A stretch of 64,000 nt of DNA from Robertmurraya dakarensis. Lineage in GTDB: Bacteria > Bacillota > Bacilli > Bacillales > Cytobacillaceae. The notes under the pieces are model-generated. The model did no database searches. It worked only from the letters and a program-made list of their open reading frames with translations, and was not told the DNA's origin. Both the position numbers and the translations under genes were made by a program. How positions within the stretch are numbered: position 1 is the stretch's first letter; each line of letters opens with the position of its first letter. Positions 3,981 through 50,775 of the stretch are shown here, piece after piece. The stretch lies in NCBI RefSeq assembly GCF_900156875.1, contig NZ_LT707409.1:1652046-1716045 (forward strand). Reading direction: 5' to 3'.

Positions 3981-4453
3981 TCACTTTCTGCTTGTAGATT
4001 TTTGAATTCCTTTATAGTAGATTCGATCGACCTGATAAGACACAGGAAACTACCTATTGGAAAACCAAGTGAAAATATCCATTGCTGCCATCCCAGCGAT
4101 GGAGTAGTTGTATTTAGCAGCATTTGAAATTGGACCATTTTTACTCCGTAATAAGTAAATATAGCAAATACAACAATCACTATCGATCCCACCAATATGG
4201 CAAGTATCTTTTTCACTGGAAGACTGGCTTGATCAAAAAGAAGGCTGAAGCCAAGGTGAGATCCTGACTTCACCCCGACTGCAGTACCAACAAACGTCAA
4301 CATAACAAATAAATTGATTGTTATTTCTTCAGTAAACGACAGCGAATGATTCATAAAATATCTTGATATCACGTTTGCAAAAGCAATGATAGACATGATT
4401 GAAGCACTAAATATCAACAAGCTGTGTTCAACCATTGATAGGATTTTTGACAT
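3977..4453 (-). CDS. dctQ: TRAP transporter small permease (DctQ family)
   Basis: A 158-residue membrane protein with four predicted transmembrane segments (about 10-32, 45-65, 85-107 and 125-145), the standard DctQ topology. The family signature region reads FTEEITINLFVMLTFVG, followed by GSHLGFSLL. DctQ scaffolds DctM and the periplasmic-type binding protein. It sits between dctP (22 nt upstream) and dctM (4-nt overlap). An AAGGTG ribosome site precedes the ATG. Confidence 0.9.
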   Translation of the reverse strand: MSKILSMVEHSLLIFSASIMSIIAFANVISRYFMNHSLSFTEEITINLFVMLTFVGTAVGVKSGSHLGFSLLFDQASLPVKKILAILVGSIVIVVFAIFTYYGVKMVQFQMLLNTTTPSLGWQQWIFSLGFPIGSFLCLIRSIESTIKEFKNLQAESE

Positions 4454-4475
4454 CTTTCATCACACCTTCATTTTT

Positions 4476-5516
4476 TTAGTTTTGGAAGGCATTTAGCAAA
4501 TCTTCTCCCCAAATATCCTTGTATGTGTCATACACTGGCTGGGAAGCAGCCTTGAAAGTTTCAATTTCTTCTTCAGTTGGATAATAGAACTGCATACCAG
4601 CTGCTTTTAACTCTTCAATTTGCTCTTTCTCTTTTTGACGAGTCGTTTCAATTTGATATTTCCTTGCATTTGCAGCTGCTGTTTTAATAATTTCTTGATC
4701 CTCTGCACTTAAAGAATCAAACGTTTTCTTGTTTACGCCAAATACTAAAGGATCATAAGAATAGTTCCACATTGTGATATAATCTTGAACTTCATTTAAT
4801 TTTGATGAGTAAATAACATCAATTGGGTTTTCTTGTCCATCGATTGTTCCTTGCTGTAATGCTGTAAATACTTCAGAGAAAGCCATTGTTGTAGGATCTG
4901 CTCCTAGTTCCTTGTAAAGATCCGTGTACATTTTGATTCCTGGAATACGTACCTTTAAACCTGAAAGATCCTCTGGACTTTTTACTTCTACCTTACTATT
5001 TGTCAACTGGCGGAAGCCGTTTTCGCCGAATCCTAATGGTTCAACACCAATTTCTCTTAAAATATCATTAACCATTTCTGGCCCTTCTCCAGCCATTTTA
5101 GCGTCAACATCTTCTAAATCTTTAAATAAGAATGGTGCACTCAACACTCCAAATCTTTCATCCAAAATAGAATAAATGATCGTCGAGTGAATACTGAAAT
5201 CAGTTGTTCCCTTAACTAATAATTCAACACCTTTACCTTGATCCCCGTTTGATAATTGTTCATTTGGATATGGAGTAATAGTAATTCTGCCGTCCGTTTT
5301 TTCGTTAACTTCCTCAGCAAATTTTTCTGCTGCTAAAAACCAAGAAGAAGTGTTACTCGTTGTTACAGACATTTTAAAATTATGTTTTTCTCCTGCTTCT
5401 GATCCATCAGAGTCACCACTGCCCCCGCTAGCACTATCACTATTTCCACAGCCAGCAGCTACCAATGCTAGAATTGCTGTTAATACAAAAGTAATCCAAA
5501 TTTTCGATCTTTTCAC
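4476..5516 (-). CDS. dctP: TRAP solute-binding lipoprotein (DctP family)
   Basis: A 346-residue extracellular binding protein. The signal peptide MKRSKIWITFVLT... ends in the lipobox VAAGC (Cys 23), so it should be a lipoprotein anchored outside the membrane. The DctP core shows the conserved regions LKVRIPGIKMY (Arg that binds the substrate carboxylate), DPTTMAFSEVFTALQQGTID and QENP. The start is GTG, preceded by GAGAGGGG at good distance. It is the first gene of the transporter operon behind the promoter at 5686-5715. The carboxylate-binding Arg region fits an organic acid ligand; which acid cannot be read from sequence. Confidence 0.92.
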   Translation of the reverse strand: MKRSKIWITFVLTAILALVAAGCGNSDSASGGSGDSDGSEAGEKHNFKMSVTTSNTSSWFLAAEKFAEEVNEKTDGRITITPYPNEQLSNGDQGKGVELLVKGTTDFSIHSTIIYSILDERFGVLSAPFLFKDLEDVDAKMAGEGPEMVNDILREIGVEPLGFGENGFRQLTNSKVEVKSPEDLSGLKVRIPGIKMYTDLYKELGADPTTMAFSEVFTALQQGTIDGQENPIDVIYSSKLNEVQDYITMWNYSYDPLVFGVNKKTFDSLSAEDQEIIKTAAANARKYQIETTRQKEKEQIEELKAAGMQFYYPTEEEIETFKAASQPVYDTYKDIWGEDLLNAFQN

Positions 5517-31654: not shown

Positions 31655-31925
31655 TTTAAAAAATATTAATTGTCTGTGAAAAGGAGCAAGAAAGAACCTT
31701 CTTCTAAAGAGAGCCTGTGGTTGGTGCAAACAGGTGTTGAAATCTTTCCGACTCGCCTTGGAGACATTCTTCTGAACTATTAGTAGGAAGAACGGAACAC
31801 ATTTCGTTATTTTGTGAAGTTAGACCTTAACTTACCGAGGCTGTTTTCGTGAGGGAGCAGCGAATGAGGGTGGTACCGCGAGATATTCTCGCCCCTCAGG
31901 CTAAGTTAAGGTTTTTATTTTTTAT
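31655..31925 (+). ncRNA. T-box riboswitch leader (probably tRNA-Leu)
   Basis: The T-box core GAGGGTGGTACCGCG is at 31866-31880. The antiterminator forms with the following GCGAG/CTCGC and GAGG/CCTC helices (to 31897). The competing terminator pairs CCTTAACTTA (31825-31834) with TAAGTTAAGG (31902-31911), followed by TTTTTATTTTTT. The Stem I distal arm GGTTGGTGCAAAC is near 31730, and a CTC triplet at 31752-31754 is a plausible leucine specifier. Uncharged tRNA would favour antitermination and leuA expression. The specifier assignment is inferred. Confidence 0.93.
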
Positions 31926-47344: not shown

Positions 47345-48820
47345 TTAGTTTGCTTCATCAGTATTATGGTCTTCTAATTTTTCAACTGCCACCGGGGCTT
47401 GCTGGTTATTTGGTGTACCTCCGTTTCCTCTTGTAACATACGATTTCAGCAGCTCGCTTACATCAAGACCGATCATTTCCTTTAATGGTTCTTGCATATC
47501 GACCATTGTTCTGGTGATACTTTTCCCAAATGAAGGCACTCCCTGACCATTCCCTGAATCAATAATTTTAACGGATTCAATATTATTAAGCGGCTGTGCT
47601 ATTTTTTCAGCAAAAATCGGCAGCATCTCGATTAGCTTTTCAGTGATAATCACATCACCGTGCTTTTCCATAGCCTCGGCGAGCAATTTCCGGGCTTCTG
47701 CCTCGGCTTTCCCGCGTTCACGGATAACATCAGCTTCAGCAGAACCTTCCTCACGGCGTATCCTTGCTTTAGCTTCCCCGTCAATTTCCGCCTTTCTTGC
47801 TTCCGCTTCCGCTTTTCTAGTAGTTTCATAGTATTCTGCGTCTGCTTTTGTCATTCTGACCTTACTTTCCTCTTCCTCTAATTTAACAGCACGTTCGCGT
47901 TCTAAGAATTTCAGTGTTAATTCTTCTTCCTTCACTTCTTTTGCCAGCTTTGCTTTCTCCAACTCATAAGACTGTTCGGATTTGGCACGAGCACGTTCTG
48001 TTTCCTCTTTAAAAGAAGCATCCTGCAAATCTTTTTCCTTTTTTGCTTCAGCGATGGCAATTTGACGTCGGTATTCTTCTTCTTTTGCTTCCTGATCCGT
48101 TTTAGCTCTGTGTATGCGAGTCTCTCTTTCACTGTTAGCTTCAGCTATCTCAGCTAGCTTGCGAACCTCTGCGATACGCGGCCTTCCTAAATTTTCTAAG
48201 TATCCATTTTCTTCATCAGCATCACGAATATCTGTGAGGCCTAATGAGGTGATTTTAAAGCCCATTAAATCGAGCTGTTTTTGAGCTATTTCGGAAACAT
48301 CATGATTGAACTTTTCCCGGTCACTATTGATGTCCTCAACCGTCATCTTCGATAGAATTGCGCGAAGATTACTCCCCAGAACCTCAATAATTTCTGATTC
48401 AATTTCATCTTGATCTTTTCCTAAAAATTGCTCTGCATAATTGGCAATCCCATTTAAGGAATCAGCTACCTTGACCATTGCAACTGCATCAGCCACGATC
48501 GGCACACCGCCATTTGTATACACTCTAGGTGTTGACAGCATTAATTGGAACGATGTTAGATTAACTGGGGTTGCAGTTTGAAAACGCTTAAGGCGGTAAC
48601 CGCCTCCTCTGATAATTTTCATCGAACGCCCTTCGTCATCTGTGAAAATATTTGACTCTTTTTCAGGGTCTCCAAGCTTTGGACCGGTAATGATTAAAGC
48701 TTGGTTGGACCTTGCTGTTCGATATCTAAATTTCATCCAAAAATAATATCCCACACCAACAATAGCTGCTACAATTAATATTGGAATCAACAGCGCGAGA
48801 AATCCAAAAATAGTTGACAA
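47345..48820 (-). CDS. floT: Flotillin-like protein FloT (YuaG)
   Basis: A 491-residue SPFH/flotillin protein. An N-terminal membrane hairpin (about 5-27) is followed by the SPFH domain (about 35-210, GGGYRLKRFQTATPVNLTSFQL) and a long Glu/Ala/Lys coiled coil (about 215-400) with repeated KAEAEARKAEI, then the assembly tail. Flotillins form membrane microdomain scaffolds. The start is TTG, with GGAAAGGGGAAG upstream. A near-consensus sigma-W promoter lies at 48975-49000, giving a 150-nt leader; B. subtilis floT is also in the sigma-W regulon. The usual partner YuaF (NfeD-like) is not adjacent. Confidence 0.93.
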   Translation of the reverse strand: MSTIFGFLALLIPILIVAAIVGVGYYFWMKFRYRTARSNQALIITGPKLGDPEKESNIFTDDEGRSMKIIRGGGYRLKRFQTATPVNLTSFQLMLSTPRVYTNGGVPIVADAVAMVKVADSLNGIANYAEQFLGKDQDEIESEIIEVLGSNLRAILSKMTVEDINSDREKFNHDVSEIAQKQLDLMGFKITSLGLTDIRDADEENGYLENLGRPRIAEVRKLAEIAEANSERETRIHRAKTDQEAKEEEYRRQIAIAEAKKEKDLQDASFKEETERARAKSEQSYELEKAKLAKEVKEEELTLKFLERERAVKLEEEESKVRMTKADAEYYETTRKAEAEARKAEIDGEAKARIRREEGSAEADVIRERGKAEAEARKLLAEAMEKHGDVIITEKLIEMLPIFAEKIAQPLNNIESVKIIDSGNGQGVPSFGKSITRTMVDMQEPLKEMIGLDVSELLKSYVTRGNGGTPNNQQAPVAVEKLEDHNTDEAN

Positions 48821-48974
48821 AAAAATCTTCCCCTTTCCAAGTTGTTTATTTTTGAAGGGAGAATCATGGATATATATTACTTCTTAGGAACTCCGAAAAT
48901 TTTTAACTGATTATTCCGAATCTTAACACCATATGATTTTCAAGATCTCCCCTTCTTCCTGCTACAATAACTAA

Positions 48975-49000
48975 TACGAACATAACGATGAAAAGTTTCA
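48975..49000 (-). promoter_or_regulatory. Sigma-W promoter of floT
   Basis: On the minus strand TGAAAC (49000-48995), a 16-bp spacer starting TTTT, and CGTA (48978-48975) followed by TT; this matches the sigma-W consensus TGAAAC-N16-CGTA. It begins within the T-tract of the terminator of the RNA locus upstream. Confidence 0.8.
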
Positions 49001-49040
49001 AAAAACACAAAAAAACCAGCTTCCGATTAGGAAACTGGTT
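49001..49040 (-). terminator. Intrinsic terminator of the candidate RNA
   Basis: AACCAGTTTCC pairs with GGAAGCTGGTT (11 bp, one wobble, 5-nt loop) on the minus strand, followed by TTTTT, GTG and TTTTTT. Confidence 0.88.
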
Positions 49041-49249
49041 TGGGTTTCAATAGGTTAAAGCCGCTATTGCCGTAATAAATTTATAAGAAAGTTTTAGACC
49101 ACACTCCTCAAAGTGGGTGTTCGCAGAAACATTCCTGCCTGTCCTCCTTGTCTTATAGACGGAGGCATGTCATTCTCGTTTCAATGTAAAACTCCCTATT
49201 ACAGCTTAAAGGTTAAAACTTAATTATGATTACGTACAATGCAGCCTGT
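49005..49249 (-). ncRNA. Candidate structured non-coding RNA (or leader) upstream of floT
   Basis: An ORF-free region with a complete transcription unit: promoter at 49256-49284, predicted start near 49249, terminator at 49040-49001. A closing helix pairs GGGAGTTTTA (49196-49187) with TAAAACTTTC (49096-49087), 10 of 10 with two G-U pairs; on the other strand these would be A-C mismatches, so the fold favours minus-strand RNA. Within it, GAAAC/GTTTC encloses a CCTCCGTCT ... AGACAAGGAGG hairpin (about 49138-49165), and there is a conserved-looking GGAATGTTTCTGCGAACACC stretch. It matches no riboswitch, 6S, SRP or T-box core that I know. It could be a stand-alone RNA or an attenuating leader of floT. 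Confidence 0.6.
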
Positions 49250-49255
49250 GTTTTT

Positions 49256-49284
49256 ATAATAATGTATTTTTATTTATTTTTCAA
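49256..49284 (-). promoter_or_regulatory. Sigma-A promoter of the candidate RNA
   Basis: TTGAAA (49284-49279), a 17-bp spacer and TATTAT (49261-49256) on the minus strand, 60 bp past the amidase stop codon. Confidence 0.65.
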
Positions 49285-49344
49285 TGGAATTATCTTGAAA
49301 ATATAAATTTCCATAAACGCGGTTGTCTTGAAATAGAACCTTCG

Positions 49345-50775
49345 TTAAGCTAAGGACGGTTCAATATAAGTCTGAAAAGCCGTCTCATAAGCATGGCAAG
49401 CTTGTAAAACAAGTTTGTCAGCAAATCTGCTTCCGGCTACTTGTAGTCCAACCGGAAGACCTGCCTCCGTTAATCCAATAGGCAGTGATGCAGCAGGATG
49501 GCCTGTTAAATTAAACGGCTGTGTTAGCGTCCAATCTGTAGCAGGATTAACCGTTTTACCATTAATTTGATCTGGTCCCTGTAAATTGTGATCAAATGCT
49601 GTTGTTGCCGTTACAGGTGATATGAGAAGATCATATTGATTAAAAATCCTCTGGAATTCTTTCCAAACTCTCGTTCTCACTAATTCTATCTGCTTGTAAT
49701 CTACAGCGCTTATTTTTCTGCCAATTTCAATGATCCTTGCTATTCCTTTTGAGAAGCTTTCTGGGTTTTGGTCATACAGCATGCCGTAATTAGCAGCCAT
49801 TTTAACGCACCACAGGCCAGAAAACGCCCTTGACAGATCGCGGATACTCTCACCTAAGGAAAGGTCAACTTCTTCAACATGGCATCCGAGCGCACGGAAA
49901 TTTGCTGCTGCTCGATGTATCACTTTACTGACATCATGAGAGATTTCATAAAGTCCAAAGTTCGGGGAAAACGCTATTCTTAAACCTTTCATATTATGTG
50001 ATAAATCTTGGTAATTTTCATCAAGTCCAGGGACCGAACTTGGGTCGTTTGCGGAATAACCTTGCATGACAGAAAACAACAAGGCAGCATCCTCTACAGT
50101 CCTTGTCATGGGACCATTATGAACAAATGGATGCTGTGTCCCAAAGGAATTCTTTTGATCACCATCATGAGGAACTAACCCAAAGGTAGCCTTTAAACCA
50201 AAAATTCCAGTCAATGCTGCTGGTATTCGGATAGAACCCCCGCCATCACTGCCTTCCGCAATAGGAGCTAACTTCGCTGCTACGGCAACAGCTGAACCAC
50301 CGCTGGAGCCTCCAGGAGTCAGCGAATCATTCCAAGGATTTTTTGTTACCCCAAATAATGGATTATCAGTCGTACCTTTATGACCAAATTCAGGAGTATT
50401 TGTTTTACCGAGAATAATTCCTCCCTCTGTTCTAATTCTTTTTAGGAAAGTAGGCTCACAGTCCGGGATATAGTCCTTAAAGATTGGGGATCCATATGTA
50501 GTAACCATCCCTTTTGTCGGCGTTAAATCTTTTATGGCAACAGGTATTCCGTGGAGTTTTCCAAATCCCTCATCTTTCATGATTAACTCTTCTGCTTTTT
50601 TAGCTTCTTCTATGGCCCTTTCATTAATTGTTACAAACGCATTCCATTTAGAATTATGTTTCTCAATTCGATCCAAATAAGCATTTACAACTTCAAGCGG
50701 GGATAATTCCTTTTCCTTCATAAGTTTTACTAGTTTAGTAGCTGAATAATCTGTAATAGACAAGCTCTTCACCAT
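49345..50775 (-). CDS. Amidase signature family enzyme
   Basis: A 476-residue amidase with the Ser-cisSer-Lys triad visible: Lys in PVAIKDLTPTKG (about 84), GGSSGGSAVAVAA (about 155-167) and the nucleophile Ser in EGSDGGGSIRIPA (about 180). It hydrolyses an amide or a carboxyl ester; substrate specificity cannot be read. It is 30 nt downstream of an acyl-CoA ligase gene, so amide hydrolysis followed by activation of the free acid is a reasonable two-step scheme. The ribosome site (GAGAAAG) is weak. Confidence 0.9.
   Translation of the reverse strand: MVKSLSITDYSATKLVKLMKEKELSPLEVVNAYLDRIEKHNSKWNAFVTINERAIEEAKKAEELIMKDEGFGKLHGIPVAIKDLTPTKGMVTTYGSPIFKDYIPDCEPTFLKRIRTEGGIILGKTNTPEFGHKGTTDNPLFGVTKNPWNDSLTPGGSSGGSAVAVAAKLAPIAEGSDGGGSIRIPAALTGIFGLKATFGLVPHDGDQKNSFGTQHPFVHNGPMTRTVEDAALLFSVMQGYSANDPSSVPGLDENYQDLSHNMKGLRIAFSPNFGLYEISHDVSKVIHRAAANFRALGCHVEEVDLSLGESIRDLSRAFSGLWCVKMAANYGMLYDQNPESFSKGIARIIEIGRKISAVDYKQIELVRTRVWKEFQRIFNQYDLLISPVTATTAFDHNLQGPDQINGKTVNPATDWTLTQPFNLTGHPAASLPIGLTEAGLPVGLQVAGSRFADKLVLQACHAYETAFQTYIEPSLA

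Follow-up and report, generated by a model that had tools for sequence, protein, structure and literature searches.

The window (the whole stretch of Robertmurraya dakarensis DNA that was analyzed, 64,000 nt) carries a structured RNA on its minus strand, between an amidase gene and a flotillin-family gene, in a gap without any open reading frame of 50 or more amino acids (Table 1). The first-pass annotation had described an ORF-less transcript unit of 245 nt that no known housekeeping RNA fitted, and had suggested a comparison with Rfam. The structured minus-strand RNA was confirmed, but the RNA itself spans about 197 nt (49250-49054) and belongs to a known family. The entire window was scanned against 4227 Rfam families, and two matches lay above the cut-off, a T-box and a 6S RNA. 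The 6S RNA (RF00013) match scored 72.1 bits against a gathering cut-off of 46.4 and covered the full model (1-187 of 187), so the RNA is not undescribed. The T-box leader lies elsewhere in the window, at 31667-31899 (+), with 118.6 bits. When 48830-49345 was rescanned laxly, up to E 1, the sole extra match was RefA9 on the opposite strand, with 23.6 bits against a cut-off of 49. A riboswitch or other cis-regulator was dropped as a candidate, as this sub-cut-off match was all that the stretch held besides 6S RNA. A guanidine-I riboswitch was seen in the same genome outside the window (L263, 2761-2877), upstream of what by eye is an ABC transporter operon.

Table 1. Positions of the 6S RNA gene and its parts in the window
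Feature	Position	Strand	Evidence
6S RNA, very probably of the 6S-2/BsrB type (class B)	49054..49250	-	Rfam RF00013, 72.1 bits; class B clade
Sigma-A type promoter TTGAAA-17-TATTAT, supported by conservation	49256..49284	-	Boxes in 141 class B relatives
Closing stem, 5' strand	49232..49247	-	Rfam alignment, pair counts, RNAalifold
Predicted pRNA template AGUUUUAACCUUUA, 5' strand of central bubble	49207..49220	-	Conservation of AGTTTTAACC; start site inferred from 6S-1 pRNA (PMC12005410)
GGGAGUUU, helix closing the bubble on the apical side, 5' strand	49189..49196	-	Pairs with 49115-49122
GAAAC, inner helix, 5' strand	49178..49182	-	Pairs with 49126-49130; each pair doubly changed in 4-27 sequences
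Apical hairpin CCUCCGUC...GACAAGGAGG	49143..49165	-	Covariation (double changes) in 7 of 8 pairs; pairing in 80.1% of cells
GUUUC, inner helix, 3' strand	49126..49130	-	Covariation as for GAAAC
GAACACCC, helix closing the bubble on the apical side, 3' strand	49115..49122	-	99.5% of cells paired; no double changes
Short hairpin, 3' bubble strand	49103..49114	-	Paired by RNAalifold (columns 157-160 with 166-169) without double changes
Closing stem, 3' strand	49058..49073	-	GC 62, AU 18, GU 10 at columns 18/213
Intrinsic terminator, supported by conservation	49013..49041	-	T-run in 120 of 141 relatives

Both the promoter and the terminator-like hairpin with its following T residues were present as first annotated. 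The number of such matches in 48000-50500 did not exceed chance (six promoter-like matches against 6.4 expected, and one terminator-like match against 2.2), and support for the two elements comes from conservation in relatives, not from match frequency alone. The consensus upstream of the RNA in 141 class B sequences (the class of the window copy, see below) contained two boxes, TTGA and TGTA.TATA. The best -10 element ended exactly 10 nt upstream of a conserved GCT(A/G) in 66 of these sequences, as it does in the window copy. A promoter score of at least 10 out of 12 was reached by 15% of the 141 sequences and by 2.8% of single-base shuffles. A T-run within 60 nt downstream was found in 120 of the 141, and the 36 nt preceding it folded at -5 kcal/mol or lower in 107 of the 133 sequences having a T4 run, which is a raw count with no shuffle baseline. 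The minus strand itself folded at -73.3 kcal/mol in comparison with a mean of -53.65 (z -4.0), lower than all 200 of 200 dinucleotide shuffles.

Judged from its sequence, the RNA is a known bacterial RNA, 6S RNA, present here as an additional 6S-2 copy, which is an ordinary finding. The locus almost certainly encodes a 6S RNA of 6S-2 (BsrB) type, transcribed from a dedicated sigma-A promoter and ended by a dedicated terminator.

Secondary structure and pRNA template

Besides the covariance-model score over the full model, two further features place the window copy in RF00013: a closing stem, large central bubble and apical arm supported in 91 relatives by RNAalifold and pair counts, and a pRNA template, located in the 5' bubble strand, that is conserved. 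No difference from the family was seen in the sequence.

The 142 class B sequences were reduced to 92 at less than 90% identity, of which 91 were aligned with MAFFT. RNAalifold recovered the 6S layout from these divergent relatives, with the closing stem, the open central bubble, the helix GGGAGUUU/GAACACCC, the inner helix, the apical helix and a small hairpin in the 3' bubble strand, and it showed double changes in 12 of 34 pairs. In the same 91 sequences the Rfam-like pairing set had 94.1% of cells paired, in comparison with 41-54% when the set was slid, which must be read with the set's derivation from the window and Rfam, as this favors it over slid versions. Its double-change cells numbered 178 against 54.9 in shuffles that ignore relatedness. 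Nearly all of the covariation lay in the closing, inner and apical stems, and the inner GAAAC/GTTTC helix and the CCTCC/GGAGG hairpin of the first pass are therefore supported, although MAFFT partly misaligned the apical hairpin. The helix that closes the bubble showed no covariation.

The first pass had also proposed a 10-bp closing helix between GGGAGTTTTA (49187-49196) and TAAAACTTTC (49087-49096). The two strands are indeed complementary, but a closing helix of this kind excludes the pairing given by Rfam and RNAalifold, both of which choose GGGAGUUU/GAACACCC. The 10-bp helix was pairable in 96.1% of cells with three double-change cells in total, and its competitor was paired almost throughout with none (Table 1). 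Because both are too conserved, covariation is neutral between them. The 10-bp helix was rejected as the conserved fold; it is the minimum-energy pairing of the single sequence.

The pRNA template core AGTTTTAACC was found in 140 of the 142 class B sequences, and AGTTTTAACCTTTA in 115 of them. The 6S-1 pRNA is given as GUUCGGUCAAAACUA in PMC12005410, and by alignment with it the window RNA should template the predicted pRNA (U)AAAGGUUAAAACU. This string did not occur in the literature text searched. In 98.2% of cells of the 91 sequences the 3' bubble strand could serve as an alternative partner of the template strand, and such an exchange would suit the refolding that PMC8876501 describes for 6S-1. 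In the 3' bubble strand the window copy carries GTGTGGTCT, in parts shared with a few other rows, against the class consensus GTGGTGGTTT; reduced function is therefore possible.

6S RNAs resemble an open promoter, and the synthesis of pRNA releases them (PMC8876501, PMC12005410). The 6S-2 RNA of B. subtilis is reported to be enriched with sigma-A polymerase during exponential growth as well as in stationary phase, and to template pRNA (PMC11077062). By analogy with B. subtilis, we infer polymerase binding, pRNA synthesis and a physiological role for the window copy. The rod of about 197 nt with its open central bubble would mimic a melted promoter and hold the sigma-A RNA polymerase holoenzyme, so that ordinary promoters would be transcribed less. 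The polymerase would then copy a short product RNA from the template AGUUUUAACCUUUA, and this product may unwind the adjoining helix and free the enzyme. A trans-acting RNA, one of the two roles first suggested, matches the general mode of action of 6S RNAs.

6S classes in the family and the place of the window copy

We compared 110 6S matches, found in 60 of 61 genomes, by their neighbors and by a tree (support is given as bootstrap/SH-aLRT). Class A, with 58 copies, had mostly aspS-, hisS- and yrvM-like neighbors (named by eye), formed a clade at 100/100 and corresponds to 6S-1; the B. subtilis bsrA gene is flanked by aspS and yrvM according to PMC11077062. Class B comprised 28 copies including that of the window (98/64). 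The 11 copies of class C had neighbors that by eye resemble efp and spoIIIA genes, and grouped at 94/87 with one extra row. The remaining 13 matches fell outside the rules for the three classes. When named and plasmid copies were added, the resulting tree of 121 rows supported class A at 100/99, class B at 100/98 (34 rows plus L121, 35 in all) and class C at 86/89, and it showed a fourth group, D, of eight rows (86/86). Class B was separate from the aspS-yrvM class in both trees.

The larger tree has the copies L179 and L216, which the tree with 28 class B rows lacks, and its class B clade includes the B. halotolerans copy L179, L216 and the B. pumilus copy L174. At L179 the order was a DksA/TraR-like gene, an azoreductase-like gene (flavodoxin fold), 6S, a RecQ-type helicase and a LysM protein, the last three protein names being given by eye; the B. 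pumilus copy also adjoins a RecQ-like gene. We take the order at the B. subtilis bsrB locus to be yocK-yocJ-bsrB-yocI-yocH. The window copy groups with the yocJ-yocI-place copies L179 and L216 in one clade (100/98), and class B would accordingly be named the 6S-2 (bsrB) type, a label that runs through this gene order and the B. halotolerans copy, with its yocK/yocJ-like and yocI-like flanks, and not through the bsrB sequence. The window copy itself is not at the yocI-yocJ place, as it sits between the amidase and flotillin genes, but this place is not strictly defining. In comparison with 6S-1 (bsrA), the window copy shares family and fold, and the genome's own class A copy (L033) has aspS- and yrvM-like neighbors; however, the window template AGUUUUAACCUUUA differs from AGUUUUGACCGAAC of 6S-1, and the clades are separate.

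The R. dakarensis genome has three 6S genes above the cut-off, at C11:2338472-2338658 (102.5 bits), at C11:884849-885031 (81.9 bits) and in the window (72.1 bits), and in the tree they are of three different types. A class B pattern matched at least 118 stretches in genome contigs. Among the 80 titled matches listed, all but one presumably belong to Bacillales, the exception being titled Pseudomonas sp. ISL-84. The pattern matched exactly in 132 of 193 family genomes, and the reversed control gave none among the matches listed. In the own genus it was found in one of seven genomes, that of R. dakarensis.

The number of 6S copies per genome was zero in one genome, one in 24, two in 25, three in nine, four in one and five in one (n = 61). 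Thus at least three copies were found in 11 of the 61 genomes, with a maximum of five; these counts are lower bounds, as the filters were strict and lost copies such as the one on the plasmid of a Niallia genome (G010). Bacteria are quoted in PMC7726162 as having mostly one copy, with two in Bacillus and four in Magnetococcus. Tandem pairs of class B genes, about 250-340 nt from start to start, were seen at L160, L172 and L203 (Bacillus sp. M6-12, Bacillus salacetis and Mesobacillus maritimus) and at L219, L221 and L229. Genome G014 (L060, contig C26) has five 6S genes in all, among them two of class B separated by about 5.5 kb, and in many genomes of genus g17 two copies are separated by about 20-40 kb.

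That the window copy belongs to a 6S lineage not orthologous to B. subtilis bsrB is unlikely. The three types in one genome, a neighborhood other than yocI-yocJ and a clade read without bsrB itself would fit such a lineage; however, the clade (100/98) is shared with the B. halotolerans copy at a yocJ-yocI-like place and the RecQ-adjacent copy of B. pumilus. A decaying, non-functional copy appears just as improbable, since neither the promoter and terminator nor the template and stems are disrupted. The window copy has the lowest score of the genome's three and departs from the class consensus in its 3' bubble strand, as decay would have it, but class B copies in the 61-genome survey score about 57 to 88 bits.

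The remaining alternative, also raised by the first pass, is an attenuator of read-through into the flotillin gene, which lies on the same strand about 230 nt downstream of the 6S RNA with the terminator between them. The downstream protein, called FloT in the first pass, has Band_7 and Flot domains and is of the flotillin family, but its score of 425.5 is below the FloT equivalog cut-off of 700. A flotillin match at E 1e-120 was found in nine of 193 family genomes, R. dakarensis included. The other eight loci, in other genera and with 65-91% identity, had no amidase (E 1e-5) and no 6S (blastn, E 1e-3) within about 1.5 kb on each side. Conversely, no flotillin homologue (E 1e-10) was found among up to six ORFs beside each other class B copy compared. 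The attenuator was rejected on gene context, the Rfam match to 6S also speaks against it, and we give it almost no credence. Among the six genus mates no clean empty site for the window 6S was found, because they have only distant flotillins (43-45% identity). The flotillin neighbor of the 6S-2 gene looks incidental.

6S genes on plasmids, in stable-RNA clusters and near phage genes

A phage-encoded 6S was considered because two viral contigs matched the class B pattern, and it was rejected: in both, the RNA adjoins a gene that by eye is PhnA-like. The same gene flanks 6S in three Lysinibacillus genome loci, and the 6S of the viral contigs is therefore probably host flank. The window RNA had no match in 50,697 phage records. 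In these two contigs (L125 and L126, prophage-like, from IMG/VR) the run of phage genes stops next to the class B 6S and the PhnA-like gene, and this place may be a preferred site of phage integration.

By blastn the window RNA matched two of 72,556 plasmid records. One was from Cytobacillus spongiae (689,878 bp, 6S of 76.8 bits). The other, from Niallia sp. XMNu-256 (NZ_CP137638.1, 22,218 bp), carries two rRNA operons, tRNA arrays (29 tRNA genes in 20,000 bases scanned) and a class B 6S at 4429-4621, whose 59.9 bits the fast Rfam mode missed. This plasmid is contig C3 of genome G010, whose chromosome gave 6S matches of classes A and C only. A Priestia megaterium plasmid of 9,782 bp has an rRNA operon, two integrase genes, 6S and SRP RNA, and part of a 212-kb plasmid of P. 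aryabhattai has 6S, SRP, 5S and seven tRNAs. The adjacent 6S and SRP genes of the Priestia plasmids, at L277 8668-9135 (NZ_CP071482.1) and L278 5997-6463 (NZ_CP072474.1), lie beside rRNA genes and integrases and are absent from the gene tables, which are incomplete and RNA-free. This pair was covered to at least 80% in three of the 72,556 plasmid records, the query included, and partially in 16 others.

The third 6S gene of R. dakarensis lies outside the window in a cluster, at about 884190-885443 of G000:C11 (locus L034, 2142-3395), of tRNA-Ser, tmRNA, tRNA-Thr, tRNA-Leu, 6S, large SRP RNA and tRNA-Ser. Its tmRNA, with the tag GKQQNSFALAA, is one of two above the cut-off in the genome, and its SRP RNA is one of three. 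Five other genomes of the 193 in the family gave a long match to this 6S and four more a short one only. In all five (G011, G023, G134, G136 and G138) the matching 6S lay beside tRNA genes, and within the stretches fetched tmRNA or SRP was close by in each except G134. In the 121-row tree, group D (86/86) consists of the third 6S, these five relatives and the two Priestia plasmid copies.

Plasmids with rRNA genes are already known (PMC10645730), and the main text of that article has neither "6S RNA" nor "tmRNA". A limited literature search found no report of 6S borne by plasmids, phages or mobile elements. At the window copy no stable-RNA element was seen, with no tRNA within 2.8 kb, and its sole link to the plasmid elements is that the Niallia plasmid 6S is also of class B. 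We regard it as possible, if rather doubtful, that Bacillaceae 6S genes travel on stable-RNA-rich plasmids or cassettes (rRNA operons, tRNA arrays, SRP, sometimes tmRNA), with group D largely tied to them and the patchy 6S-2 genes, the window copy included, partly spread by them; the 121-row tree made this reading slightly more probable.

The annotation of the locus is settled as an additional 6S RNA gene, whose predicted pRNA sequence is testable. The 6S repertoire found here is larger than the one or two copies quoted for most bacteria and for Bacillus (PMC7726162). If 6S genes are mobile, transcription brakes would move along with translation capacity, and 6S beside rRNA operons on plasmids would couple a global regulator of transcription to rRNA genes that are mobile.
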